Assembly: GCA_035714365.1 (NCBI GenBank)
Contig: DASTMB010000032.1
Coordinates: forward strand, 1 to 42,767
Length of the DNA: 42,767 bases
Direction: 5' to 3'
Origin: Mycobacteriales bacterium
Lineage (GTDB): Bacteria > Actinomycetota > Actinomycetes > BP-191
A program made the translations under genes and the position numbers. Position 1 is the first letter of the stretch, and each line of letters starts with the position of its first letter. Shown one piece after another: positions 22,633 through 42,767 of the stretch. The notes beneath the pieces were generated by a model. That model did no database searches and was not told the DNA's origin. It saw nothing but the letters and a program-made list of their open reading frames with translations.

Positions 22633-23169
22633 GTGGTGTGCGCTTCGTTCGTGCTGCTCACCGGCGGCCCCGGCGGCGGGAAGACGACGCTCGTCGAGCA
22701 CCTGGCCGGGCGCGGGTACGCGACCTCGGCCGAGGCCGGGCGGGCGATCATCCGCGACCAGGCGCTGGTCGGCGGGCCGCTGCGGGCGGACCCGGTGGCG
22801 TTCGCGGAGACGATCCTGACCTGGGAGCTGCGGGCGTACCGCGAGGCGAGCGGGCTGACGTTCTTCGACCGGGGCGTGCCGGACGTCGTGGCGTCGTACC
22901 TGCTGCTGGACCGCCCGGTGCCGGACCACGTGCTGCGGGCGGCGGAGGTCTGCCGGTACGCGCCGGTGGCGTTCGCGGCGCCGCCGTGGCGGGAGGTCTA
23001 CGTCAACGACGCCGACCGGACGCAGACCTGGGACGAGGCGGTGCGGACGTACGAGGCGTGCGTGGCGGCGTACGAGCGGTGCGGCTACGAGCTGGTGGCG
23101 CTGCCGTTCGCGCCGGTCGGGGAGCGGGCGGCGTTCGTGCTGGGGCGCGTCAGTCCGCCGTCGCCGTGA
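22633..23169 (+). CDS. P-loop ATPase, predicted (COG3911-like AAA_28)
   Basis: A predicted P-loop ATPase of unknown function. The Walker A motif is TGGPGGGKTT (about residues 10-19) and a conserved FFDRGVPD follows. The C-terminal half has APPWREVYVNDADRTQTWDEA, typical of this small family. The product is about 178 residues from the GTG at 22633, which has AGGA 7 nt upstream. A second GTG follows immediately, and the frame upstream to 22369 is open but lacks homology. It is transcribed away from rpsL. Its 3' end overlaps the convergent channel gene by 20 bp. Family members look nucleotide-kinase-like, but the substrate is unknown. Confidence 0.82.
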   Translation: MVCASFVLLTGGPGGGKTTLVEHLAGRGYATSAEAGRAIIRDQALVGGPLRADPVAFAETILTWELRAYREASGLTFFDRGVPDVVASYLLLDRPVPDHVLRAAEVCRYAPVAFAAPPWREVYVNDADRTQTWDEAVRTYEACVAAYERCGYELVALPFAPVGERAAFVLGRVSPPSP

Positions 23170-25039
23170 CGACGACCAGCTCGTCGCCGGGCGCGAGGTC
23201 CAGCTCGGTCGCCTTCGGCGGGTTGACGACGACCGGCGCCCGGCCGCCGGAGCCGCCGCGCCGGTAGCCGATGGCGATGTCGCCGTGCGCGGCGGCGCCC
23301 GCGACGAGGGCCCGCCACGTCGTCCGCCCCGCCGGCGCGACCATCGTCGCGTCGTAGATGGACAGCTCCGCGCCGCCCGCGCCGAGCAGCTCGTCGAACA
23401 CCTCGCGCAGCTCGGCGTTCTCCGAGAGCTGGACGAGGACGTAGCTGGTGAGCCGGTCGCTCACGACGAAGTCGTCGGCGGCGGTCGTCGGCGCGATCCG
23501 GACGTCGTCGGCGTCGAGGAGCTCCGCGACGACGGTCGGCACCGGCTCCCCCTCGCCGCGGCCGCGGAGCACGTGCTGGACCTCCAGCAACGTCAGCAAC
23601 GTCCGGGCGTCCGACTCGGCGGGCGGCAGCCCGCGGTAGCAGAGCACCACGAGGTGCTCCCACGAACGGTCCGCCAGCAGCTTCGCGAGCATGCCCTCGT
23701 CGGTGGTCCGTCCGGGCAGCCACGCCACGTCGAGGGCGGCGACGTCGAACGACGCCGGGGCGGCGGGCACGACCTCCGGGTCGGCGACGACGAGCGCCGC
23801 CGCGCCGGGGCAGGCGTACGCGTCCAGCTCGCGCAGGAGGCCGGGCCCCATGTCGTTCCAGCCGAGCACGAGGATCCGGTCCGGCGTGTGCCGCCGCGGG
23901 CGCTCCCCCGCGGCCGGCGTGACGGCCGGGCCGCCCGCGCCGCCGAGGACGACGGTGTCGTCGTCCGCGGAGATCGCCACGACGTGGTCGCCGGGCCGCA
24001 GCACGAGGTCCATCGGCGGCACCAGCTCGACCCGGCCGTTCGCGTGCCGGACGCCGATGACCGACGAGTCCTCGTACGCCAGCAACGCCTCCGCGAACGT
24101 CAGCCCCGCCAGCCGGTCGTCGGTGCCGAAGTAGATCTCGTCGCCCTCGAAGTCGAGCAGCTCCTGGTACACCCACGACAGCCCCGGCTGCCGGCACACC
24201 TGCGCGGTGACCCGCGCGAGCACCTCGCTGGACACGACCGGCAGCACCCGGTCCGACGTCGCCTGCCGCAACGACTCCGCGCGCAGCGCGTCGCGGACCT
24301 CGACCACCAGCGGCGCCGTCTCCGGCAGGTCGGTGCGCAGCAGCGCGAGCACCGTCTTGACGGCGTACGCGTCGTACGGGTCGTCCTCGGCGGCGAGCAC
24401 GACGACCGACTTCGCCCGGCCGGGCGTGACGAGCGCGAGGTCGACCGGGTCGAACGGCTTCCCGGTCCGGCAGACCATCCGCGTCCGGCCCGGGTGCGGC
24501 ACCCAGCGGCGCACCGCCTCGTCCATCTCCTGCTTGTCGACGTCGGCGAGGATGACGACGCTGGCGCGCGTCTGGTTCTCGTTCGCGACGACGAACTCGC
24601 CGAGGATCGTCGCGAGCTTCGGCGACCAGCCGAGGACGAGCGTGTGGCCGCTCTCCACGACGAGCGAGCGGCCCCGCCGCAGGTCCGCCAGCTTGCGGTC
24701 GATGGCGTTGGCGGTGAGGCCGATCAACGTCGTGACGACGAAGATGCCCACCAGCGTCACGAGCAGCGAGACGGTGCGGAACGGCCAGCCGACGTCGTTG
24801 CCGCCGGTGCCCGGGTCGAGGGTGCGGACGAGGCTCGCCCACACGCCCTCGACCAGCCCGCCGTCGGTCTGGCCGTTGACGGGGATGTGGAACAGGCTGA
24901 TCGCCAGGCCGGCGAGGACGACGACGGCGAGGCTGACGAGCCCGAGCCAGGCGACGAGGACGACCAGGCCGCGCGCGAGCGCGTTGTCGACGGCGTAACG
25001 GATGCGCGCGCCCAGCGGCGCGTCCCCACGGCGGGCCAC
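23150..25039 (-). CDS. CASTOR/POLLUX-like ion channel with RCK-type domains
   Basis: A 629-residue membrane protein similar to the bacterial relatives of plant CASTOR/POLLUX channels. Two membrane helices (about 23-50 and 88-111) flank a short pore-loop-like segment around GVWASLVRTLDPGTGGND. Two cytoplasmic Rossmann-type RCK domains follow, beginning near GHTLVLGWSPKLA and DRILVLGWNDMG. RCK C-like segments lie between and after them (LVPPMDLVLRPGDHVVAIS and the C-terminal LAPGDELVVVTATAD). These features suggest a nucleotide- or ion-gated cation channel. The canonical TVGYG filter is absent, so selectivity is unknown. The GTG at 25039 is the start, and mug is divergent after 56 nt. Confidence 0.85.
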   Translation of the reverse strand: MARRGDAPLGARIRYAVDNALARGLVVLVAWLGLVSLAVVVLAGLAISLFHIPVNGQTDGGLVEGVWASLVRTLDPGTGGNDVGWPFRTVSLLVTLVGIFVVTTLIGLTANAIDRKLADLRRGRSLVVESGHTLVLGWSPKLATILGEFVVANENQTRASVVILADVDKQEMDEAVRRWVPHPGRTRMVCRTGKPFDPVDLALVTPGRAKSVVVLAAEDDPYDAYAVKTVLALLRTDLPETAPLVVEVRDALRAESLRQATSDRVLPVVSSEVLARVTAQVCRQPGLSWVYQELLDFEGDEIYFGTDDRLAGLTFAEALLAYEDSSVIGVRHANGRVELVPPMDLVLRPGDHVVAISADDDTVVLGGAGGPAVTPAAGERPRRHTPDRILVLGWNDMGPGLLRELDAYACPGAAALVVADPEVVPAAPASFDVAALDVAWLPGRTTDEGMLAKLLADRSWEHLVVLCYRGLPPAESDARTLLTLLEVQHVLRGRGEGEPVPTVVAELLDADDVRIAPTTAADDFVVSDRLTSYVLVQLSENAELREVFDELLGAGGAELSIYDATMVAPAGRTTWRALVAGAAAHGDIAIGYRRGGSGGRAPVVVNPPKATELDLAPGDELVVVTATAD

Positions 25040-25651: not shown

Positions 25652-28600
25652 CTACGCCACGACCGAACGCAGCCGTGCCCGGCGCTGCGCCGGAACGGCG
25701 CGGGCGACGGCGGCGGCGCCGAGCCGCTCGGCGAGCTCGTCGGCGGGCAGCGGCCGCGAGTACAGGTACCCCTGGCCGGTGTCGCAGCCGAGCTCGCGGA
25801 GCACGTCCGCCTGGACGGTCTCCTCGATGCCCTCGGCGACGGTGCGCAGCCCGCGGGAGCGGGCCAGCGCGACGATGGCCCGGACGATGTCCGCCTGCTC
25901 CGACTCGGCCGCCTCCAGGTCCATGACGAACGACCGGTCGATCTTGAGCACGTCCACCGGGAACTGGTTGAGGTAGCCGAACGACGAGTAGCCGGTGCCG
26001 AAGTCGTCGATCGCGACCTTGACGCCCAGCTCGCGCAGCGCGGTGAGCTGGCCGCGGACGACGTCGACATCGGCGGCGAGGACGCTCTCGGTGATCTCCA
26101 GCGTCAGGTCGCCCGCGTCGATGCCGGAGTCGGCGACGGCCGCGCGGACCTGGGCCAGGAGGCCGGGGTGCTCGAGCTGGCGGATGGACAGGTTGACGCT
26201 CATCCGCGGGCGGATGCCGTACTCGCGCTGCCAGGCGGCGAGCTGCTCGCAGGCGGTGACGAGCACCCACTGGCCGAGCGGCACGATGTCGCCGGTCTCC
26301 TCCGCGATGGGCACGAAGACGTTCGGCGGCACCAGCCCGCGCTCCGGGTGCTGCCAGCGCACCAGCGCCTCGAAGCCCTCCAGGTCGCCGTTCGCCATCG
26401 ACACGATCGGCTGGTACACCAGGCGGAACTGCCGCTGCGCGACGGCCGCGGCCAGGTCGCCCTTGAGCTCCAGCCGCTCGCGGAACAGCTCGTCCATGCC
26501 GGGCTCGTAGACCTGCACGCGGTTCTTGCCGCGCGTCTTCGCCAGGTACATGGCGACGTCGGCGCGGCGCAGCAGCACCTCGGTCGACACCTTCTCGTCG
26601 CGGCGGACGACGAGGCCGACGGTGGCGGTGACGTGGAGCTGGCGCCCGTCGACCACGAACGGCTCGGCGAACGTCGCGCCGAGCCGGCGCGCGACCTCGA
26701 CCGCGTCCTGCGGGTCGATGCCGTCGAGCAGCACGCCGAACTCGTCGCCGCCGAGCCGCGCGGCGGTGTCCTGCGCCCGCAGGCACGCCTCCAGCCGGCC
26801 GGCGACGGCGCGCAGCAGGGTGTCGCCCGCGACGTGGCCGAGGCCGTCGTTGACGGTCTTGAAGTCGTCCAGGTCGACGTAGAGGACGGCCGTCGTCGAC
26901 GGCGTGCGCGCGTCGCGGGCCAGCGCCTGCGTGACGCGGTCGAGGAACAGCGTGCGGTTGGCGAGGCCGGTGAGGCCGTCGTGCAGCGCCAGCCGGCGCA
27001 GCTCCGCCTCCAGCGTCTTGCGGTCGGTGACGTCGCGGCCGTTGAGGACGATGCCGGCGACGCCGGGCTCGCGCCGCAGGTCGCTCGCGGTGAACTCCAC
27101 GATCGCCCAGTCGCCGTTGCGACGGCGGACGCGGACCTCGCGGGTGAACGGCGGGAACGAGTCGCTGCGGTCGAGCGGCAACGCCGCCAGGTCGTCGTCG
27201 TGCACGAGCACCGCGCCGTTGGTGCCGGCGATCTCGTCCGGCAGGTAGCCGAGGACGCGGGTGACGGACGGGCTGACGTAGCTGATGTGCGCCTGCTGGT
27301 CGAGCACGACGACGACGTCGCTCGCGTGCTGCACCAGCGACCGGAACCGCGCCGCGCTCTCCTGGAGCTCGAGCTGCGCGCGCTTGCGGTCGGTGATGTC
27401 GCGGAAGTGGACGACGACGCCGGACACCTCGGGCTCGTCCAGCAGGTTCTCGGCGACGACCTCGAACCAGCGCCACGAGCCGTCCGCGTGCCGGAACCGC
27501 GACTCGATCGGCTCCCGCGCGCCGGCCGACGCCCAGACGACGTCGAGCAGGCTGCCGGCGAGGAACCGGTCGTCCGGGTGGATGCGGTCGAACGGGTGCT
27601 TGCCGAGCAGCTCCTCGTCGGTCACGCCGAGCAGGTGCTCGCAGGCGGGGCTGGCGAACGTCACGCTGCCCGCGCCGTCGACCAGCGTGACGAGGTCGGA
27701 GCCGTTCTCGACCAGGGCGCGGAAGCGGCGTTCGTGCTTGCGGCGCGCGATCTCCTCGGCGAGGGCGTTCGCCTCGAGCGCGACGGAGAGCTGGTCGGCG
27801 AGCGAGCAGACGCCGCCGACGACCTCGAACGCCACGGGCTTGTCGGTCGTGACGACGAACGCGCCGCGGACCGCGCCGCGCGCGACGAGCGGCACGACCA
27901 GCACCTGGCGGGGGCGGTCGCCGCCGGCGACGTCGACCGCGACGGTGCGCGCGGTGCGCCAGACGCTCTCGGCGACCGCCGGCGCGAGCTCGGCGCACGC
28001 GGCGAGGTCGACGACGTTGCCGACTGCGCGGTCGGCGGCGTGGCCGACGCTGGCGACGACGCGCAGCTCGCCGCCGTCGAGCGTGGCGACGCTGGCGCGG
28101 CCGGTGGAGCCGGTGCCGACCATGCGCGCGACGGTCTCGACCGCGACGGCCCGCATCGCGTCGGCGTCGAGCGTGCCGGCGAACGACGCCGCGGCCGCCC
28201 GCAGCACCGCCTCGCGCGCCGCCTTCCGCTCCTTCGAGCGGACCAGGCCGGCGAGGCGGCTGAGCACGAGCATCGCCATGACGACGGAGCCGACGGCGTA
28301 GACGGCGGTGCCGCCGCCGCGGGTGACCTGCCAGGCGAGCATGCCGGGCACCAGGATCATCGCCACGAACAGCGTCGCCAGCCGGGCGCGGGTGAGCCGG
28401 ACCTCGTGCGGCGGCGGCCGCTCGGCGAGCAGCGCCATCGACGGGTGCATCGCGGCGGTCGCGAGGAGCACGTAGGAGGCGGCGGACGTGACGAACGTCC
28501 ACGGCCCCAGCGTGATGCCCATCGTCTCGACGGTGACGAGCGCGTCGGCGAGCAGCGCCATCGCCCACGCGCCGCCGAGCAGGTAGTAGCTCTGGTTGCG

Positions 28601-29146
28601 GCGGCCGCCGCCGACGGCGAGCCGGACGGTGACGCCGACGAGAACGAGGTCGCAGAGCGTGTAGGCGACGCTGAGCGTCTTCTGCAACGCGTCCATGTAG
28701 ATCGACTCCACGTACGGCATGAGCACGTACTGGGTGACGAAGACGCCGAGGCAGGTGACGAGGATGAGCGCGTCGAGCAGGTTGTCGCCCTCGACCTGCG
28801 CCTTGCGCCGGCGCACCAGGGCGAGGACGCCGCCGATCAGCAGCGCGTACCCCACGTAGTAGACGGGGTCCGCCGGGGACGGGAACGGCTTCGGCTGCCC
28901 GATGACGGCGGCGTGCCCGGCGCGGACGAGCTGCGCCGCGATGAACATCAGCGCGCCGTACCGGAGCAGCGTCCACGGGCGCGTGTGGGTGCCGGCCCAC
29001 GCGCGGGTGCCGCGGCGCATGGCGACGACGGCGACGCCGCTGATCGCGAGCGCGAGGATCGGCTGGATGCCTGCGGGGACGACGCCGACGGCCGCGACGG
29101 CAACCACGCCCACGGCCAGGAAACGGCGCCAGCTCGATGAAGTCAT
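25652..29146 (-). CDS. Membrane PAS-GGDEF-EAL protein, putative cyclic di-GMP cyclase/phosphodiesterase
   Basis: A 1164-residue cyclic di-GMP signalling protein. Roughly ten membrane helices fill residues 10-310, followed by a GAF-like region (about 320-460), PAS at about 473-590 and PAS at about 600-715. The GGDEF domain has the active motif at 799-803 and a product-inhibition I-site RAQD exactly five residues before it. The EAL domain (from about 890) has EAL at 926-928 plus the catalytic groups SVNLS, LEITES, DDFGTGYSS, KIDRSF and EGIEE. Both halves therefore look catalytically intact, so it could make and break cyclic di-GMP under an unknown signal. It starts at ATG 29146, and a longer overlapping frame is only a shadow. 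Confidence 0.93.
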   Translation of the reverse strand: MTSSSWRRFLAVGVVAVAAVGVVPAGIQPILALAISGVAVVAMRRGTRAWAGTHTRPWTLLRYGALMFIAAQLVRAGHAAVIGQPKPFPSPADPVYYVGYALLIGGVLALVRRRKAQVEGDNLLDALILVTCLGVFVTQYVLMPYVESIYMDALQKTLSVAYTLCDLVLVGVTVRLAVGGGRRNQSYYLLGGAWAMALLADALVTVETMGITLGPWTFVTSAASYVLLATAAMHPSMALLAERPPPHEVRLTRARLATLFVAMILVPGMLAWQVTRGGGTAVYAVGSVVMAMLVLSRLAGLVRSKERKAAREAVLRAAAASFAGTLDADAMRAVAVETVARMVGTGSTGRASVATLDGGELRVVASVGHAADRAVGNVVDLAACAELAPAVAESVWRTARTVAVDVAGGDRPRQVLVVPLVARGAVRGAFVVTTDKPVAFEVVGGVCSLADQLSVALEANALAEEIARRKHERRFRALVENGSDLVTLVDGAGSVTFASPACEHLLGVTDEELLGKHPFDRIHPDDRFLAGSLLDVVWASAGAREPIESRFRHADGSWRWFEVVAENLLDEPEVSGVVVHFRDITDRKRAQLELQESAARFRSLVQHASDVVVVLDQQAHISYVSPSVTRVLGYLPDEIAGTNGAVLVHDDDLAALPLDRSDSFPPFTREVRVRRRNGDWAIVEFTASDLRREPGVAGIVLNGRDVTDRKTLEAELRRLALHDGLTGLANRTLFLDRVTQALARDARTPSTTAVLYVDLDDFKTVNDGLGHVAGDTLLRAVAGRLEACLRAQDTAARLGGDEFGVLLDGIDPQDAVEVARRLGATFAEPFVVDGRQLHVTATVGLVVRRDEKVSTEVLLRRADVAMYLAKTRGKNRVQVYEPGMDELFRERLELKGDLAAAVAQRQFRLVYQPIVSMANGDLEGFEALVRWQHPERGLVPPNVFVPIAEETGDIVPLGQWVLVTACEQLAAWQREYGIRPRMSVNLSIRQLEHPGLLAQVRAAVADSGIDAGDLTLEITESVLAADVDVVRGQLTALRELGVKVAIDDFGTGYSSFGYLNQFPVDVLKIDRSFVMDLEAAESEQADIVRAIVALARSRGLRTVAEGIEETVQADVLRELGCDTGQGYLYSRPLPADELAERLGAAAVARAVPAQRRARLRSVVA

Positions 29147-29268
29147 GTGGCGCAGTTCGGCCAGTAAGGCAACGGCCGTGAGCGTGTCGGCACCGATCTG
29201 ATCCCGTGGTGCGCGAAGTCAGGGCTTCGGTCCCGCGGGCGAGGTGGGCCGACCGGGCCATGCGCCTG

Positions 29269-29327
29269 GTCCCACTAGGCCAATTTCCGGAATGGGACTA
29301 CTCCGCGCTCAAGACTCCGTACAGAGT
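29269..29327. promoter_or_regulatory. Dyad elements upstream of the GNAT/arginine decarboxylase operon
   Basis: GTCCCACT (29269-29276) and AATGGGAC (29291-29298) form an inverted repeat with one mismatch. Between and touching them is the palindrome TTCCGGAA (29285-29292). A separate 14-bp dyad, ACTCCGTACAGAGT, with one mismatched pair lies at 29314-29327. All are 75 to 135 nt before the ATG at 29402, in the 255-nt divergent gap shared with the GGDEF-EAL gene. They may be operators. No clear promoter hexamers were found. Confidence 0.4.
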
Positions 29328-29401
29328 GTGACCCGCTGGCAGGTACTTTCCGTGACGCGGCGACCACCCAGCGCCACGTCCATCCGCAACGGAGGAACCC
29401 C

Positions 29402-29998
29402 ATGACCACGGCTGTACTGGCCCCCGCCCCGGCCCCGGTGCGCGTTCCGGCCCGGGTCGCGCGGCTGACGGAGGTGCCGGACGACCTCGCCGAGCAGTTC
29501 CTCGCCGTGTACCGCGCGGCGTTCGCGCCGCTCGAGACGCGCTCCGCGGCGCGGCAGTCGCTCACCGACGACGAGTTCCGCGCGGAGATGCGCGACGCGC
29601 GCGTCACCAAGCTGGTCGCGTTCGACGAGAACGGCGACGCCGGGGCGATGGCCATCGTCGCCACCGACCTCGCGGTCGTGCCGTGGATCTCCGTGCCGTA
29701 CTACGCCCACCGCTTCCCCGAGCACTTCGCCCGCGGCGCCGTCTACTACGTCAACGCGGCCGTCGTCCGGCCGGACCGCCAGGGCGGCCCGTGGACGAAG
29801 GCCGTGCTCGAGGAGCTCTACCGATTCGTGGCGGAGCGGCGCGCGGTCATGGCGTTCGACTGCTGCGGCTACAACGTCGACACGGTGAAGCTGGTCGAGG
29901 CGACCGCCCGCGCCGCGCACCGGATCGCGCACGTCGAGACCCACGAGCTGGACCAGCAGCGCTACTACGCGTTCGACATGGCGGGAGGCCTGCGATGA
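29402..29998 (+). CDS. GNAT-like N-acetyltransferase-type protein coupled to arginine decarboxylase
   Basis: A 198-residue protein with a GNAT-like layout. Following a disordered Pro/Ala-rich start, a helix (AEQFLAVYRAAFAPLETR) precedes a core with a candidate acyl-CoA-binding motif A at residues 121-139 (VVRPDRQGGPWTKAVLEEL). Later blocks are VMAFDCCGYNVDTVKLVEA and the C-terminus HELDQQRYYAFDM. The acceptor is unknown. The ATG has GGAGGA 5 nt upstream. The stop overlaps the arginine decarboxylase start as ATGA, so the two proteins are probably made together. Acylation of agmatine or of the decarboxylase is a speculation from context. Confidence 0.72.
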   Translation: MTTAVLAPAPAPVRVPARVARLTEVPDDLAEQFLAVYRAAFAPLETRSAARQSLTDDEFRAEMRDARVTKLVAFDENGDAGAMAIVATDLAVVPWISVPYYAHRFPEHFARGAVYYVNAAVVRPDRQGGPWTKAVLEELYRFVAERRAVMAFDCCGYNVDTVKLVEATARAAHRIAHVETHELDQQRYYAFDMAGGLR

Positions 29999-30546
29999 CC
30001 AGCGAGCTGATCCTGCCCGACGTCGCGCCCGCCCGGCTGCGGACGCGCACCATCGAGATCGCCTGCGGCACCGGCACCGGGCCGAACACGCTCGCGGCGT
30101 TCGACGGCGCCCTGCGCGCCACCGGCATCGCGAACTTCAACCTGCTGCGGCTGTCGTCGGTGATCCCGCCGGAGACCGAGGTGCGGGCGATGGAGGGGCC
30201 GGTGTCGCCGATCATCGGCGAGTGGGGTGACCGCCTCTACGTCGTCATGGCCGAGCAGCGCGTCACCGAGCCCGGCGCGGAGGCGTGGGCCGGCATCGGC
30301 TGGGTGCAGAACGCCGAGACCGGCAAGGGGCTGTTCGTCGAGCACGAGGGGCATGACGAGGGCAGCGTCCGCGGCGACATCCTCGACAGCCTCGGCGCGC
30401 TGGTCGAGGGGCGTCCGGACGAGACGTTCGGGGAGCCGAACTTCGTGCTCCACGGCGCCGTCTGCGACGGCACCCCCACCTGCGCGCTCGCGGTCGCCGT
30501 CTACGAGACGGCGCCGTGGTCGATCGACCTCACCGGCTGCGCGTAG
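29995..30546 (+). CDS. Pyruvoyl-dependent arginine decarboxylase
   Basis: Predicted to convert arginine to agmatine using a pyruvoyl group made by self-cleavage, not pyridoxal phosphate. The 183-residue proenzyme carries GTGPNTLAAFDGALRATGIANFN and the cleavage site RLSSVIPPETE. Cleavage between Ser54 and Ser55 would give a beta chain and a pyruvoyl alpha chain, as in the Methanocaldococcus jannaschii enzyme. Glu116 in FVEHEG aligns with that enzyme's catalytic Glu109. The start overlaps the preceding gene by 4 nt. The 3' end overlaps the convergent SRPBCC gene by 17 bp. Confidence 0.88.
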   Translation: MTSELILPDVAPARLRTRTIEIACGTGTGPNTLAAFDGALRATGIANFNLLRLSSVIPPETEVRAMEGPVSPIIGEWGDRLYVVMAEQRVTEPGAEAWAGIGWVQNAETGKGLFVEHEGHDEGSVRGDILDSLGALVEGRPDETFGEPNFVLHGAVCDGTPTCALAVAVYETAPWSIDLTGCA

Positions 30547-30967
30547 ACGTGGTCTCCGCCAGGGCGGCCAGGCGTTCGAGAGAGCGCCTGGCGCTCGGCT
30601 TCTTCACGACCGGAAGCACCGCGTAGAACAGCAGGCGTTGCGCCGGCGACAGGTTCGTCGCCGTGATCGTCCGGGTGACCGTCGTCCCGGTGCCGTCGGG
30701 CACGAGCGCGAACTCGTGCTCGTACGTCCCCGTCGCGTCGGTCGCGCGGAACGCGAACCGGCTCGGCTCGGCGGAGGCCAGGACGTCGAGCCGGGCCCGG
30801 AACTCCCGGCCCTTCGCGGTCGCCACCGACTCGTAGCCGCCGCCCGTCGCGGGCGAGACGGTGACGTCGTCGGCGGACCACTCGCCGTGCCTCGTGAGGT
30901 CGGCGACGAGCGGCCAGACCTGGGCCGGCGCGGCATCGGTACGGACGGTGGAGATGTACTTCGGCAC
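30530..30967 (-). CDS. SRPBCC-family (START/Bet v1-like) protein
   Basis: A 145-residue SRPBCC-family protein with a hydrophobic ligand pocket fold. The N-terminus PKYISTVRTDAAPAQVWPLVAD is the typical first strand and helix. The strands FRARLDVLASAEPSRFAFRA and TYEHEFALVPDGTGTTVTRT follow, and it ends in a helix. The ligand is unknown. It starts at GTG 30967 with GGAGGG 8 nt upstream, 3 nt after the HTTM gene, as third gene of a small operon. It overlaps the arginine decarboxylase tail-to-tail. Confidence 0.82.
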   Translation of the reverse strand: MPKYISTVRTDAAPAQVWPLVADLTRHGEWSADDVTVSPATGGGYESVATAKGREFRARLDVLASAEPSRFAFRATDATGTYEHEFALVPDGTGTTVTRTITATNLSPAQRLLFYAVLPVVKKPSARRSLERLAALAETTSTRSR

Positions 30968-30970
30968 GGG

Positions 30971-31834
30971 TCACGCCCTCCGTGGGAGCCGGAGCCGTTC
31001 CAGCGGCAGGAACGCCAGCAGGCAGACGACCGTCGGCAGGAAGTGGATGCGGATCGTCAGGTACGTCGCGACGTGGAACGACAGGAGCACCGCGAGCGCG
31101 GCCGCCCTGGCCCGCCCGCGCACGAGGAACAGTACCGGCGTCGCCGCCTCCAGCAGGAGCAGCCCCCACTGCGCGGCGACGAGCAGGTGCGGGTGCGCCA
31201 GCAGCCGCACGCCGAGGTCGGTGCCGCGCCGGCTCAGCGCCCAGTAGAACGTCGCGCTGTTCGGCCACCCCCAGCCGCCGTGGCGGATCTTCGCGTACGC
31301 CGAGAGGAAGTACGTCGCCACCGCGGCGAGCTGGATGCAGCGCAGCGTCCACGCGGCCGCCTCGCTCCGGATATCGCGGTCGATGCCGCGCGTCGCCCCG
31401 GCGAGCGGCAGCACGAACAGCGCCACCACCAGGCCGAGCTGGTCGTGGTCGACCTTGCCGTACGAGTACGCCAGGAACATCCAGTCCAGGTACGCCAGCG
31501 CCACCACCCAGCCGGCCGCGCGCCGCGCGTGACCGGTGGCCGCGACCAGGCTGCCGGCGATGAGCACGACCCGCAGCGTCTGCGCGTACGCCGGCGTCGG
31601 CGCCGGCAGGAGCAGCAGCCGCGGGATCAGCACCGGGCGGTACAGCACCGCGGGCGCGTACGCGTGGGGCACCACGTCGTTGACGAGCATGAGGACGCTG
31701 AACGGCACGAACAGGTACAGCACGACCCGCAGCACCGCGACCCGGCGCACCGGCTCCGGCCGGAACCAGAACGCCGCCACCCGCGCCGCCAGGCCGCCGC
31801 CGCCTTCCGCCGCCGGCACCGCGACGGCGGTCAC
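30971..31834 (-). CDS. HTTM-domain membrane protein (vitamin K-dependent carboxylase-related)
   Basis: A 287-residue polytopic protein with about seven to eight membrane helices. The pattern RVVLYLFVPFSVLMLVND, then AYLDWMFLAYSYGKVDHDQLGLVVALFVLPLA and YFLSAYAKIRHGGWGWPNSATF, fits the HTTM family, which is distantly related to vitamin K-dependent gamma-carboxylase. The conserved SAYAK followed by a Trp-rich loop is a family hallmark. Catalytic competence cannot be judged. The GTG at 31834 overlaps the upstream gene as GTGA, and an SRPBCC gene follows after 3 nt. Confidence 0.78.
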   Translation of the reverse strand: MTAVAVPAAEGGGGLAARVAAFWFRPEPVRRVAVLRVVLYLFVPFSVLMLVNDVVPHAYAPAVLYRPVLIPRLLLLPAPTPAYAQTLRVVLIAGSLVAATGHARRAAGWVVALAYLDWMFLAYSYGKVDHDQLGLVVALFVLPLAGATRGIDRDIRSEAAAWTLRCIQLAAVATYFLSAYAKIRHGGWGWPNSATFYWALSRRGTDLGVRLLAHPHLLVAAQWGLLLLEAATPVLFLVRGRARAAALAVLLSFHVATYLTIRIHFLPTVVCLLAFLPLERLRLPRRA

Positions 31835-32280
31835 CGCACGGTCCAGGTGGCGAGCGTCTCGGTGCGTTCGCCGACCTTCACCGCGTGGCGCAGCAGGATC
31901 TGCCGCACCTTGATCGTCAACGTCGTGAACTGCGGCTGCTCCGGGTGCAGGCGGCGTTGCGCCTCGGCCACCGCCTGGAGCCGCGACGGGTCGGCGCGGA
32001 TCAGGTCGAGCTGCCCCTCGATCTCGGCGCGGCCGATACCGACGCCCTCCGGCGTGAGCAGCACCTTCACCGTCGTGCCGGCCGTCGTCGTCGCCTCGAT
32101 GTAGAGGTCGGGGACGGTGCCGTTCGGGTCGGCCGCGAACGCGTACTGCACCATCGGCCCGAACGGGAAGTGGTCGTCGCGGCCCCACACCGTGCCGTAC
32201 GCGAGCCCGGCGAGCACCAGCCCGGCCGCGCCGAGCCGCAGCGCGCGCCCGCGCGCCGACAACGCGATCTCGACCCCCAC
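31831..32280 (-). CDS. Single-pass membrane/secreted protein of unknown function, HTTM partner
   Basis: A 149-residue protein with one N-terminal hydrophobic helix (about 13-30), then a probably extracytoplasmic domain starting RDDHFPFGPMVQYAF. The rest is a compact beta-rich part with VPDLYIEATTTAGTTVKVLL and LTIKVRQILLRH. I do not recognise a named family. The GTG at 32280 has GGGAGGG 5 nt upstream. Overlap with the HTTM gene indicates that the two work together. Confidence 0.75.
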   Translation of the reverse strand: MGVEIALSARGRALRLGAAGLVLAGLAYGTVWGRDDHFPFGPMVQYAFAADPNGTVPDLYIEATTTAGTTVKVLLTPEGVGIGRAEIEGQLDLIRADPSRLQAVAEAQRRLHPEQPQFTTLTIKVRQILLRHAVKVGERTETLATWTVR

Positions 32281-32339
32281 GGCGGCCCTCCCTTCCCGGG
32301 AGGATAGGACCGCACCGCGTCAACGGCCGCGAACCCGCG

Positions 32340-33536
32340 TCAGTACGTGTCCTCGGCCTCGGCGCGGCGCTGGAGGTACTCGTGGAAGCGGGGGGCCGTG
32401 TACTCGTACTGGCCCTTCCGGATGCGGTACAGGACGCCCGCCTCCACCAGCCGGCCGAGCAGCACGTTCACGTTGCCCGGCTGCTTCTTCGTGACGCCGT
32501 TGAGGTCCGCTACCCGCAACGGCGGATAGCCGCACCGGGCGGCGCTCACCAGCAGGTCCTGCTCCGCGGGCGTCAGCGTATGGACGCGCGGCTCGTAGAA
32601 GTCGCGGTCGAGGCGCCGGTAGATGTGCGGCTCGACAGCGTGGAGCAGCTCGAGGTCGAACCGCGACCGCCGCGCGTCCTCGGCGGCGTCCCAGAGCTCC
32701 GCACCCCAGAGCTGGATGAAGTACGGGTACCCCTCGACGGTCCGCAGCACGGTGTCCACGAGCGCCGGTTCGGCCTCGACGGCGGTGTCGGTCAACGGCC
32801 GGACGAACGCGTCGGTGGCCGCGCCGGCGGCGAGGGAACCGATGTGCTCGCCACGAAACATGCGTTCGGTGTACGTGCGTGCGTGCAGCAGGTTGCCGGT
32901 CAGCGTCGGCAGGCCGCAGAGCACCAGCCCGATCGGCACCTCCGCCTTCTGGAGGGCACTCACCGCCGCGATCAGCATCGAGAGGGGGTGCTCCCCGTCG
33001 CGGTGGGTGTCGTCGCGCAGCACCTGGGCCTCGTCCAGCAGCAGCACGAAGCCGTCGCGCCCCTTCTCCAGCGCGAGCTCGGTCGTCTCGAACAGCGTCC
33101 GCGACAGGTCGATCCCGTGCGGGCCGCCCTGGTCGAACGTGAGCGTGATGTCCTCGAACTTCACCCCGATGCTGCGCACCGCGCCGACCGCCGCGCCGAG
33201 CCGTGCCCGCACCCACGCCGACTTCGACAGTGACTCCTGGGTCCGCTTGGCCACCCCGGCCACCGCCTTGAGCAGCATCCCCTCGGTGTTGTGGCGCGGC
33301 TCCAGCTCCAACGTTGCCGTCGCCCACTCGGCCTGGTCGGCGACGTTCGCGAACTCGCGGAGGAGCACGGTCTTGCCGACACCACGCAGCCCCGTGAGCC
33401 GCATGTTCGCCGGGATCTCCGGGGCCGCCCGCAGGACCGCGCGGAAGTCGCGGATCTCCGCCTCTCGGCCGGCGAGGTGCAACGGCAGGGTGCCGACGCC
33501 GGGCCGGTACGGGTTCTTCCCCAGGAACAAAGACAT
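32340..33536 (-). CDS. AAA+ ATPase with winged-helix tail (ORC/Cdc6-like AAA_16)
   Basis: A 398-residue ATPase beginning MSLFLGKNPYRPGVGTLPLHL, then AGREAEI. Walker A is GLRGVGKT (49-56), Walker B is FVLLLDEAQ (163-171), and a sensor-like strand follows in IGLVLCGLPTL. The C-terminal part (about 320-390) looks like a winged helix (TPAEQDLLVSAARCG, VTKKQPGNVNVLLGRLVEAGVL). This matches orphan bacterial ATPases related to archaeal-type ATPases and ORC1/Cdc6. The role is unknown. It is a stand-alone gene whose Shine-Dalgarno sequence, AAGGAG, lies inside a 47-bp palindrome. Confidence 0.88.
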   Translation of the reverse strand: MSLFLGKNPYRPGVGTLPLHLAGREAEIRDFRAVLRAAPEIPANMRLTGLRGVGKTVLLREFANVADQAEWATATLELEPRHNTEGMLLKAVAGVAKRTQESLSKSAWVRARLGAAVGAVRSIGVKFEDITLTFDQGGPHGIDLSRTLFETTELALEKGRDGFVLLLDEAQVLRDDTHRDGEHPLSMLIAAVSALQKAEVPIGLVLCGLPTLTGNLLHARTYTERMFRGEHIGSLAAGAATDAFVRPLTDTAVEAEPALVDTVLRTVEGYPYFIQLWGAELWDAAEDARRSRFDLELLHAVEPHIYRRLDRDFYEPRVHTLTPAEQDLLVSAARCGYPPLRVADLNGVTKKQPGNVNVLLGRLVEAGVLYRIRKGQYEYTAPRFHEYLQRRAEAEDTY

Positions 33537-33582
33537 TACAGAGACTCCTTTAGGTTCCTCAAACCTAAAGGACTCTCTGTAA
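33536..33582 (-). promoter_or_regulatory. 47-bp palindrome over the ATPase start, with DtxR/IdeR-like iron box
   Basis: The arms 33536-33556 and 33562-33582 are complementary at 20 of 21 positions around a 5-nt centre. On the minus strand the inner 19 bp (33568-33550) read TTAGGTTTGAGGAACCTAA. That matches the DtxR/IdeR consensus TTAGGTTAGSCTAACCTAA at 15 of 19 positions, including both outer heptamers. The element covers the ATPase Shine-Dalgarno sequence and reaches the first base of its ATG. It is strikingly A+T-rich for this window. It may be a repressor operator, an RNA hairpin hiding the ribosome site, or both. Confidence 0.72.
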
Positions 33583-33608
33583 GGACTGCAACTACGGGCA
33601 CCAACACG

Positions 33609-33649
33609 CCGCGAGGCCCGGCTCCCTCGGAAGGGGCCGGGCCTCGCGG
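33609..33649 (-). terminator. Intrinsic-type terminator of rpoBC
   Basis: CCGCGAGGCCCGGC (33609-33622) and its complement (33636-33649) form a perfect 14-bp stem with a 13-nt loop. The structure begins 12 nt after the rpoC stop. The transcript continues CGUGUUGGUG, only mildly U-rich. Position and stem strength support termination. Confidence 0.75.
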
Positions 33650-33661
33650 GTCGTGCGGGGT

Positions 33662-37543
<3,882 letters not shown>

Positions 37544-37567
37544 GAAGTTCCTTCTCTCTTATGAGTC

Positions 37568-37594
37568 AGGTCTGAGGGACGGACTGCCTGTGCC

Positions 37595-37602
<8 letters not shown>
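37568..37602 (-). other. Hairpin spanning the rpoB stop codon
   Basis: AGGTCTGAGG (37568-37577) and CCTCAGACCT (37593-37602) form a perfect 10-bp stem with a 15-nt loop. The upstream arm contains the rpoB stop (37595-37597). The rpoC GTG is 25 nt beyond the structure. No U-run follows, so a processing or partial-termination role is more likely than full termination. Confidence 0.5.
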
Positions 37603-41005
<3,403 letters not shown>

Positions 41006-41106
41006 CGAACGTCCTTCCGAGCCTGGTTGAGCCTGGGCACACGAGTTGCCCTCCAGGTCGGCTACCGCCATATGAAGCGACCAGAGGGTGGACAGCGCAA
41101 AAGGGC

Positions 41107-41135
41107 AGTCTAGCCGGGCGCTAGACCGCTGTCGA
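41107..41135 (-). promoter_or_regulatory. Promoter of rpoBC
   Basis: TCGACA (41135-41130) lies exactly 17 nt before TAGACT (41112-41107) on the minus strand. The hexamers match the housekeeping consensus at 5 and 4 of 6 positions. Transcription would start near 41100, giving a leader of about 95 nt before the rpoB TTG. The rest of the 286-nt gap to the plus-strand gene shows no gene. Confidence 0.6.
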
Positions 41136-41291
41136 GCCGAACCTGATGCTGGTGTCCACAGTCGCCGCCCAGGATGCGGGCTGCGCGCCCCGCCGTCAAC
41201 CCCTTGCGCGACGCGGCGCGGTCTGCTGGGGTGTGCGCCGCCCGGTCCCCCGTTTCCGGGCCATCCCCTACGTTCCCGGAGGAACCCCCAG

Positions 41292-42059
41292 ATGTCCCCC
41301 ACGCTCCGCCGCGCTCTCACGCGCCTGGTGCTCGCCGGCGTCACCGCCACCGCGGCACTCACCGCCACCGCCCCCGCCGCGAACGCCGCCGCGTCGGGCG
41401 ACCGCGTCGTGCTCGTCGCCGACAGCGTCGTCACGACCTCCGGGTCGTGGGTCGGCCTGCACGCCATCGCCGAGGGCTCCGGCGGCGGGTACCAGATCTC
41501 GATCTTCGAGAACGGCACCCTGATCCAGACCTGCTACTCGACCGCCTGCGACACCACGGTCGCGCACGACCGCGGCACGTACACCTACACCGCGTACCTC
41601 GCGCAGTACTGGCAGAGCCCGCCCACGTCGTACAACGCGAAGTCGAACGCCGTCTCCGTCTCGTGGACCTCGCTCAGCCCGACCGACTGCACGCCGACCC
41701 AGGGCGTCGTCGCCTGCCTCACGCCGGGCGCCGAGCTCCAGCGCGTCCACGTCCTCGTGCCGGCGGTCGTGCCCGGCATCACCGTCCACGTCGCCGGCTA
41801 CCTCGACCTCTACGCGTTCACGGTCGCCGACGTCACGGTCACGCTGCCGTGCGTCGTGCTCGACAACGCGCGGACCAACCCGTGCGAGCTCGCCGGCGGG
41901 TCATACGTGCGCCGGTACGCGACGCTCGCGAACGTCACCCAGGACGTGCCGTCGGTGGGGACGTACGAGCTGACCTCGGTCGGGGTCTGCGCCGCGACGC
42001 TCACCGCGACCGTCGACGACATCGGCGTCAACCGCGCCCCGGCGGTCACCGTCTGCTGA
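41292..42059 (+). CDS. Secreted protein of unknown function with Ig-like beta-rich body
   Basis: A 255-residue exported protein. The signal peptide [19 protein letters not shown] continues through an Ala-rich core to a probable signal peptidase site around APAANAA (near residue 33). The mature part is Thr/Val/Ser-rich and beta-like. Eight or so cysteines fall in pairs, such as [16 protein letters not shown] and [13 protein letters not shown], suggesting disulfides outside the cell. I do not recognise a family. GGAGGA lies 8 nt before the ATG. The open frame upstream to 41088 is non-coding by composition. It is divergent from rpoB and convergent with the next gene. Confidence 0.8.
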
Positions 42060-42068
42060 CGCGGCGGC

Positions 42069-42767
42069 TCAGACGACGGCGACGTCGGAGATGAGCCACT
42101 TCCCGTGCGAGCGCACCAGCGTCAGGGCGACGCGGTTGCGGTCGACCCGGGGCGTGGGCCGCAGCTTGTTCCGCGACTCCTGGTCGTAGAACACGAGCAC
42201 GACGACCCGCTTGCCGTCACGGCAGGCGGTGTCGTCGCTGCCGCACGGCTCCAGGCCTATGCGCTGCACGGTGCTCGTCAGCGTCGCCTCGTTCTCCTTC
42301 ACGAGCGCCTTGTACGCGTCGTTCTTGAGGATCTTGGCGTCGAACTCCTCGCGCGCCTCGCCGGTCGTGCTCTCGGCGATGCGGGTGAGGTCGCGGTCGA
42401 GGTTCTTGTGGTCGAGCGAGCCGATGTTCAGCGCGAGCGTGCGCGCGGCGCGCAACGCCTCGGCGCGGCGCGCGGCGAGCCGATCGGCGCGGCGCCAGTC
42501 GAGGACCGGCCGCGACGCGACCCAGCCGAGCGCACCGAGGAGCACGACCGCGACCATGGTGACGGCGACGACGAGGACCGGACGGCGCCCGCCGCGCGGA
42601 GGCTCGTCGTACCGGCGCGGCGGGTCCCACGGCGACTCGTCCTCGGCGGGGACGGCGGGGTGGGGGGCGAGCTCGGTGGTGGTCGCGGCGGCCGCGGCGA
42701 GGCCGGCGTCGACGGTGGCGGTCGGCTCCGGTGCCGCGACGGCGGGCGGGGGCGCGGGGGCGGGGAC
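42069..42767 (-). CDS. Mce-associated-type membrane protein (5' end beyond window)
   Basis: The frame is open to the right edge, so the start is outside the window. About 232 residues are visible. They comprise a Pro/Ala-rich cytoplasmic region with PWDPPRRYDEPPRGG, one membrane helix (VLVVAVTMVAVVLLGALGWV) and an external domain. The domain pattern ALRAARTLALNIGSLD, then LDRDLTRIAESTTGEAREEF, and the terminal RSHGKWLISDVAVV fits the Mce-associated/SnoaL-like membrane proteins of actinobacteria. An internal ATG at 42557 sits just before the helix and is less likely the true start. No mce genes are in view, so a link to Mce transport is not shown. Confidence 0.75.
   Translation of the reverse strand, partial: VPAPAPPPAVAAPEPTATVDAGLAAAAATTTELAPHPAVPAEDESPWDPPRRYDEPPRGGRRPVLVVAVTMVAVVLLGALGWVASRPVLDWRRADRLAARRAEALRAARTLALNIGSLDHKNLDRDLTRIAESTTGEAREEFDAKILKNDAYKALVKENEATLTSTVQRIGLEPCGSDDTACRDGKRVVVLVFYDQESRNKLRPTPRVDRNRVALTLVRSHGKWLISDVAVV

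Follow-up and report, generated by a model that had tools for sequence, protein, structure and literature searches.

A divergent pyruvoyl-dependent arginine decarboxylase, a GNAT-fold protein, and a linked membrane sensor: a candidate small-molecule signalling module of Actinomycetota

The window, that is, the whole 42,767-nucleotide stretch of DNA analyzed here, encodes a GNAT-fold protein and a divergent pyruvoyl-dependent arginine decarboxylase (PvlArgDC) next to a divergently transcribed membrane sensor. The near-constant linkage of such a sensor to these enzymes across genomes suggests a signalling system rather than ordinary amine metabolism, and we read the gene pair as the putative synthase half of a small-molecule signalling module. 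The observed support for this reading consists of gene linkage, gene fusions, a single type of input domain that combines with various outputs, and the replacement of either enzyme, decarboxylase or acyltransferase, by another type. In the proposed mechanism, PvlArgDC would self-cleave at the Ser-Ser site and decarboxylate arginine to agmatine, as predicted from its conserved residues; the GNAT-fold protein would acylate an amine, most probably agmatine, with acyl-CoA or acyl-ACP as the donor; the linked sensor would perceive the product through its conserved transmembrane (TM) input domain; and the product would then shift the sensor output, presumably c-di-GMP turnover in this genome and histidine-kinase phosphotransfer in others. 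For the full chain of agmatine synthesis, acylation, and sensing by the linked sensor, which is proposed from sequence, we consider the chances to be about even. The earlier note on this DNA had suggested a new branch of polyamine metabolism, a proposal that overlooks the constant membrane sensor and its pointer to signalling. The features of the locus are as follows:

25652 to 29146, minus strand: membrane sensor, 1164 aa, divergent to the pair, with TM input, PAS, PAS, GGDEF, and EAL domains (Pfam) and a TM domain common to the sensors of other loci; proposed receptor
25751 to 26458, minus strand: EAL domain of the sensor (Pfam)
26519 to 26989, minus strand: GGDEF domain of the sensor (Pfam)
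27023 to 27316, minus strand: PAS domain 2 of the sensor (Pfam)
27395 to 27727, minus strand: PAS domain 1 of the sensor (Pfam)
28202 to 29146, minus strand: TM input domain of the sensor, residues 1-315, without a Pfam name; all helical (AlphaFold2, pLDDT 90.6)
29147 to 29401, no strand: divergent intergenic region of 255 bp between sensor and pair; presumed control region, judging from the gene layout
29402 to 29998, plus strand: GNAT-fold protein, predicted N-acyltransferase, 198 aa (ORF; AlphaFold2 model; homologues beside PvlArgDC)
29995 to 29998, plus strand: ATGA stop/start overlap of the GNAT and PvlArgDC genes (read from the sequence)
29995 to 30546, plus strand: PvlArgDC of a divergent subfamily, 183 aa (PF01862; invariant key residues)
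30154 to 30159, plus strand: Ser-Ser self-cleavage site of PvlArgDC, residues 54-55 (sequence and family alignment)
30340 to 30342, plus strand: codon of the predicted catalytic Glu116 of PvlArgDC (sequence and family alignment)

The GNAT ORF is preceded by GGAGGAACCCC and ends in CGATGA, with the PvlArgDC ORF starting in the same ATGA; the overlap described in the earlier note is thus confirmed, with both ORFs at the coordinates listed above. Several neighbors were recorded in passing. The 3' end of the PvlArgDC gene overlaps, tail to tail and by 17 bases, a gene for an SRPBCC (Polyketide_cyc2) protein (30530-30967). Positions 23150-25039 encode a protein with the mid domain of Castor/Pollux ion channels (PF06241), which are best known from plant symbiosis. 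Within window positions 25652-42767, the module is flanked by an rps/rpl-tuf-fusA block and by rpoC-rpoB, where accessory signalling genes are not usually expected.

The decarboxylase, the sole PvlArgDC of its genome, is identified by a Pfam PF01862 match of 82.1 bits (cut-off 22.7). In a family alignment with nine homologues, Ser54, Ser55, Glu116, and Asp37 are invariant, in agreement with the earlier observation that the Ser-Ser cleavage site and the catalytic Glu are kept, and from these residues the protein is predicted to convert arginine to agmatine. Because it scores below the NCBIfam equivalog cut-offs (50.5 versus 106.95 for TIGR00286, and 43.5 versus 207), we assign it to a divergent subfamily. 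Canonical PvlArgDC genes of the same phylum (14 loci, L216-L229) are located beside speD, speE, and speB, with no such GNAT nearby, so the GNAT link belongs to the divergent subfamily; in contrast to these canonical loci, none of the three spe genes is found among the window genes at the locus. In-frame stops in some decarboxylase matches were considered as recoding and dismissed, being C-terminal ends (one lies upstream of the start).

PvlArgDC is present in 10 of 297 genomes of the class, and the GNAT gene is directly adjacent in all 10, in either order: decarboxylase-GNAT in most relatives, and the reverse in the genus of the window. The contig of another genome of this genus (G034) stops short of the module site. 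A scan of named genomes yielded 80 GNAT loci, from Nocardioides, Nocardia, Isoptericola, Cellulosimicrobium, Promicromonospora, Microlunatus, Actinoplanes, and others; a six-frame search located PvlArgDC close by on the same strand in 79 of these, a count biased toward pairs, given that the query alignment was drawn from paired loci, whereas the count of 10 out of 10 is free of this bias. In several Nocardioides (L033, L082, L089, L125, and L149), PvlArgDC and GNAT form a single ORF. The dedicated two-gene pairing proposed in the earlier note is therefore well supported by adjacency and by natural fusions, and the rarity of the pair in other genomes, which that note held would speak against it, is not what we found. 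Plasmid searches gave no match. Distance correlations among GNAT, PvlArgDC, and sensor (0.48-0.68) are confounded by species kinship and were not used. Among variants of the arrangement, a Friedmanniella metagenome-assembled genome (L153:2170-6024) keeps the order kinase-GNAT-OmpR regulator with the decarboxylase between kinase and GNAT missing. Additions were seen at L151:5040-6275 and L155:5707-6684: the GNAT of Actinoplanes carries a second, fused GNAT domain, and in Millisia a RimK-like ATP-grasp gene comes after the GNAT gene. Both suggest further tailoring of a small molecule.

The third partner is the membrane sensor. Across the phylum, 30 of 31 GNAT loci adjoin a multi-TM signalling protein of 500-1190 aa. 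In the 24 window-type loci found by decarboxylase-only searches, that is, with neither GNAT nor sensor used, a sensor with the same TM domain lies no more than two genes from PvlArgDC in every case (10 of 10 in the class and 14 of 14 in another order). Considering that the genomes tested carry one to eight copies of this TM domain, we estimate chance adjacency at about 1% or less per locus. In 94 sensors, the N-terminal TM regions are all homologous to one another yet joined to different outputs, namely, histidine kinase (50), GGDEF (30), and GGDEF-EAL (14), and of 80 further multi-TM proteins at these loci, only three matched, all of them sensors of the same kind with an uncalled GNAT gene; hence, it is the TM input domain that travels with the enzymes, and the output is exchangeable. 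Typical operons are kinase-PvlArgDC-GNAT-REC in Nocardioides, kinase-PvlArgDC-GNAT in Isoptericola and Cellulosimicrobium, and PvlArgDC-GNAT-GGDEF in Nocardia. The TM domain of the window protein has no Pfam match and no PDB match at E below 0.001. Two candidate relationships were rejected: GPCR-like VIA matches (Z near 10) fall within the stated noise for helical bundles, and kinship with HisKA_7TM (PF16927) found neither a Pfam match nor more than a 0.2 percent hhalign probability. Comparison of L191 (G031), from a Nocardia-type genome, with L036 (G106), both of which have a galactokinase-like gene on one side and the same conserved gene on the other, showed that the TM-GGDEF sensor is kept in L191 and the PvlArgDC-GNAT pair is missing; the pair behaves as a unit, and L191 may encode a receptor without its own synthase genes, a solo receptor.

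A point against the signalling reading is that the sensor might regulate the pair rather than sense its product. The pair would then make agmatine or acyl-agmatine for physiology (stress, envelope, or storage), with the sensor as an upstream regulator responding to another cue, an alternative that we consider unlikely but worth weighing. It could account for the REC-only genes added in Nocardioides loci and for the OmpR-type regulator in L034 and L153, which could control the operon, as well as for the extra enzymes of some species (the ATP-grasp protein of Millisia and the second GNAT domain of Actinoplanes). What it does not readily explain is that the input domain is constant while the outputs vary, including GGDEF-EAL outputs that come without a linked transcription factor, and that the Nocardia-type sensor is retained at its locus where the pair is missing.

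It appears improbable that the locus serves ordinary conversion of agmatine to putrescine, in which case the GNAT would be a polyamine acetyltransferase like SpeG, PaiA, or BltD. The genome of the window encodes no agmatine deiminase and one ureohydrolase away from the locus, which might be an agmatinase and would then suit this alternative; the earlier statement that no agmatinase or deiminase lies nearby accordingly holds for the locus and, for the deiminase, for the whole genome, but not for the ureohydrolase. PaiA is also among the structural neighbors of the GNAT. Four of the ten PvlArgDC genomes, however, carry neither a ureohydrolase nor an agmatine deiminase and thus lack these two known routes of agmatine breakdown, which fits a dedicated use of agmatine. 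Furthermore, the absence of speD, speE, and speB from the locus sets it apart from canonical PvlArgDC loci, and the constant sensor would be left unexplained.

The GNAT of the window has no Pfam match at E values up to 1, including the LuxI/AHL synthase and FeeM families, and no NCBIfam match, although the Acetyltransf_1 profile picks up 11 of 24 members of the family (best E value, 8.8e-8). PDB searches with the single sequence and with a profile returned no meaningful match, nor did a contig scan with the single sequence return any. The AlphaFold2 model (mean pLDDT 94) has the GNAT fold and matches many GNATs at VIA Z-scores of 13-14.7, among them RimI (Z = 14.7, rmsd 2.4, 137 aligned residues), FeeM (Z = 14.1, rmsd 3.0, 159 aligned), and LasI (Z = 13.0, rmsd 3.2, 159 aligned). 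The closeness of FeeM and LasI is tied with that of ordinary acetyltransferases, so the fold gives no pointer to long-chain transfer. Protein N-terminal acetyltransferases also belong to the structural neighbors, and PanZ is not among the matches listed. The earlier description of a GNAT-like motif A needs to be qualified: the motif is degenerate in the window protein (RQGGPW against the consensus Q/R-x-x-G-x-G/A), in contrast to QGMG in distant relatives; binding of an acyl donor is therefore not assured. The Cys-Cys block (FDCCGYNVD) highlighted in the earlier note does not hold up as a family feature: the Asp (D153) is its sole invariant residue, and near-invariance of the second Cys is confined to PvlArgDC-linked GNATs, so the block was dropped as a functional signature. 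PvlArgDC-linked members form one group in the GNAT tree (SH-aLRT 97) and two groups in a wider tree, where the window protein is placed inside that of the other order (SH-aLRT 99); from this placement, the module may have spread between orders.

Both enzymes of the pair appear to be exchangeable. Distant GNATs adjoin an ornithine-decarboxylase-type PLP enzyme (alanine-racemase fold, GPTCD motif), to which they are fused in L071 and L073, and the sensor at these loci is either a kinase of the HisKA_7TM type or a 7-8 TM protein from that same set, with a TM domain that shows no detectable relation to the actinobacterial one. In 12 of the 31 GNAT loci, the GNAT is accompanied by a TM-GGDEF-EAL sensor with no adjacent decarboxylase. 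Conversely, of the 14 window-type PvlArgDC loci in the other order, 11 contain the GNAT and three have no detectable copy. Exchange of the ACYLTRANSFERASE was observed in G565 (L234:3747-10374), where, in this single locus, a FeeM-family (PF21926) protein whose score of 27.2 bits just exceeds the cut-off of 27.0 takes the place of the GNAT, with the window-type PvlArgDC and an opposite TM-PAS-PAS-GGDEF-EAL sensor kept. FeeM is an N-acyl amino acid synthase, and enzymes of this type acylate the amine of amino acids; for this reason, the exchange is the best pointer to N-acylation. Beside the FeeM-family gene lies a convergent fatty-acid-desaturase-like gene, the product of which could be a hydroxylase and shows weak similarity (40.6 bits, far below the cut-off) to the arginine hydroxylase GntB. 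In two loci where GNAT is missing, PvlArgDC is flanked by unnamed proteins that are weakly similar to each other (L252:6421-7128 and L262:7897-8841), possibly a third type of acyltransferase.

These exchanges bear on the remaining alternatives. Activation and regulation of the pyruvoyl enzyme PanD involve a GNAT protein, PanZ, whose action depends on CoA (PMC4410942), and the window GNAT could likewise be a factor that triggers or inhibits CoA-dependent maturation of the decarboxylase; besides this direct precedent, the weakened motif A is what would be expected of a non-catalytic binder, and the GNAT-PvlArgDC fusions fit a physical complex. Nevertheless, the GNAT family pairs and fuses with PLP decarboxylases, which need no such maturation, or stands without a decarboxylase, as in the 12 loci above, and three window-type PvlArgDC loci have no detectable GNAT, which canonical PvlArgDCs also lack. 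We therefore rejected PanZ-like maturation as the main reading and regard it as very unlikely. Of the two outcomes that the earlier note had envisaged, modification of the enzyme is disfavored for the same reason, and an acylated agmatine is the best-supported chemistry, as we infer from the FeeM replacement and the exchange for ornithine-decarboxylase-type enzymes. Least likely of all is a role of the GNAT in protein acetylation, with a substrate such as the neighboring sensor or response regulator and with the decarboxylase as an accessory: protein N-terminal acetyltransferases are among the closest folds and the GNAT without a decarboxylase still adjoins the TM-GGDEF-EAL protein in 12 loci, but this would not explain why the GNAT repeatedly pairs and fuses with two amino-acid decarboxylases that are unrelated to each other, nor why a FeeM-family protein replaces it.

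The signalling reading itself has to accommodate the degenerate motif A, the 12 of 31 loci without an adjacent decarboxylase, the single FeeM locus close to the cut-off, and the lack of any dedicated exporter among the genes seen. With these points taken into account, we tentatively propose, with a confidence somewhat short of even, a widespread, modular family of cell-to-cell signalling systems in Actinomycetota, in which a pyruvoyl or PLP decarboxylase and a GNAT or FeeM acyltransferase would make N-acylated amines, to be perceived by dedicated TM receptor domains that are combined with histidine kinase, diguanylate cyclase, or GGDEF-EAL outputs. If correct, this would establish acylated amines derived from decarboxylated amino acids as a chemically new class of bacterial signal and would also add a new receptor domain; it would explain the divergent, GNAT-linked PvlArgDCs found outside spermidine operons; and a three-gene module would tie a secreted metabolite to c-di-GMP or phosphorelay control. 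To our knowledge, few small-molecule signals have been described for genera including Nocardioides, Nocardia, Isoptericola, and Cellulosimicrobium. Full-text literature searches, the coverage of which excludes most subscription journals, found no publication on the GNAT-PvlArgDC-sensor module.

Among known systems, PanZ/PanD (PMC4410942) resembles the pair in that a GNAT-fold protein works with a pyruvoyl decarboxylase, and differs in that the GNAT family described here also occurs with PLP decarboxylases or with none and nearly always with a sensor. The Methanocaldococcus PvlArgDC (PF01862) shares with the window protein the sequence family, the Ser-Ser cleavage site, the catalytic Glu, and Asp37; compared to canonical PvlArgDCs, the window type is divergent and has a GNAT and a sensor as genetic partners in place of speD-speE-speB. 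FeeM and the LuxI-type synthases share the GNAT fold, and a FeeM-family protein occupies the place of the GNAT in G565, although the window GNAT matches neither the FeeM nor the LuxI profile. Norspermidine is sensed by NspS/MbaA, in which a periplasmic binding protein acts with a GGDEF-EAL membrane protein. The likeness lies in a polyamine-related input to a GGDEF-EAL membrane protein, but the window module has no periplasmic binding protein, its input would be the TM domain, and the synthesis enzymes are encoded alongside. In the LuxM/LuxN and CqsA/CqsS quorum-sensing systems, the signal-synthase gene adjoins the gene for a multi-TM histidine-kinase receptor. Similarly, the candidate synthase genes described here are linked to a candidate membrane receptor (24 of 24 loci), whereas the enzymes are a decarboxylase and a GNAT, the receptor domain is a different one, the outputs also include diguanylate cyclases and phosphodiesterases, and the putative ligand probably belongs to another chemical class.
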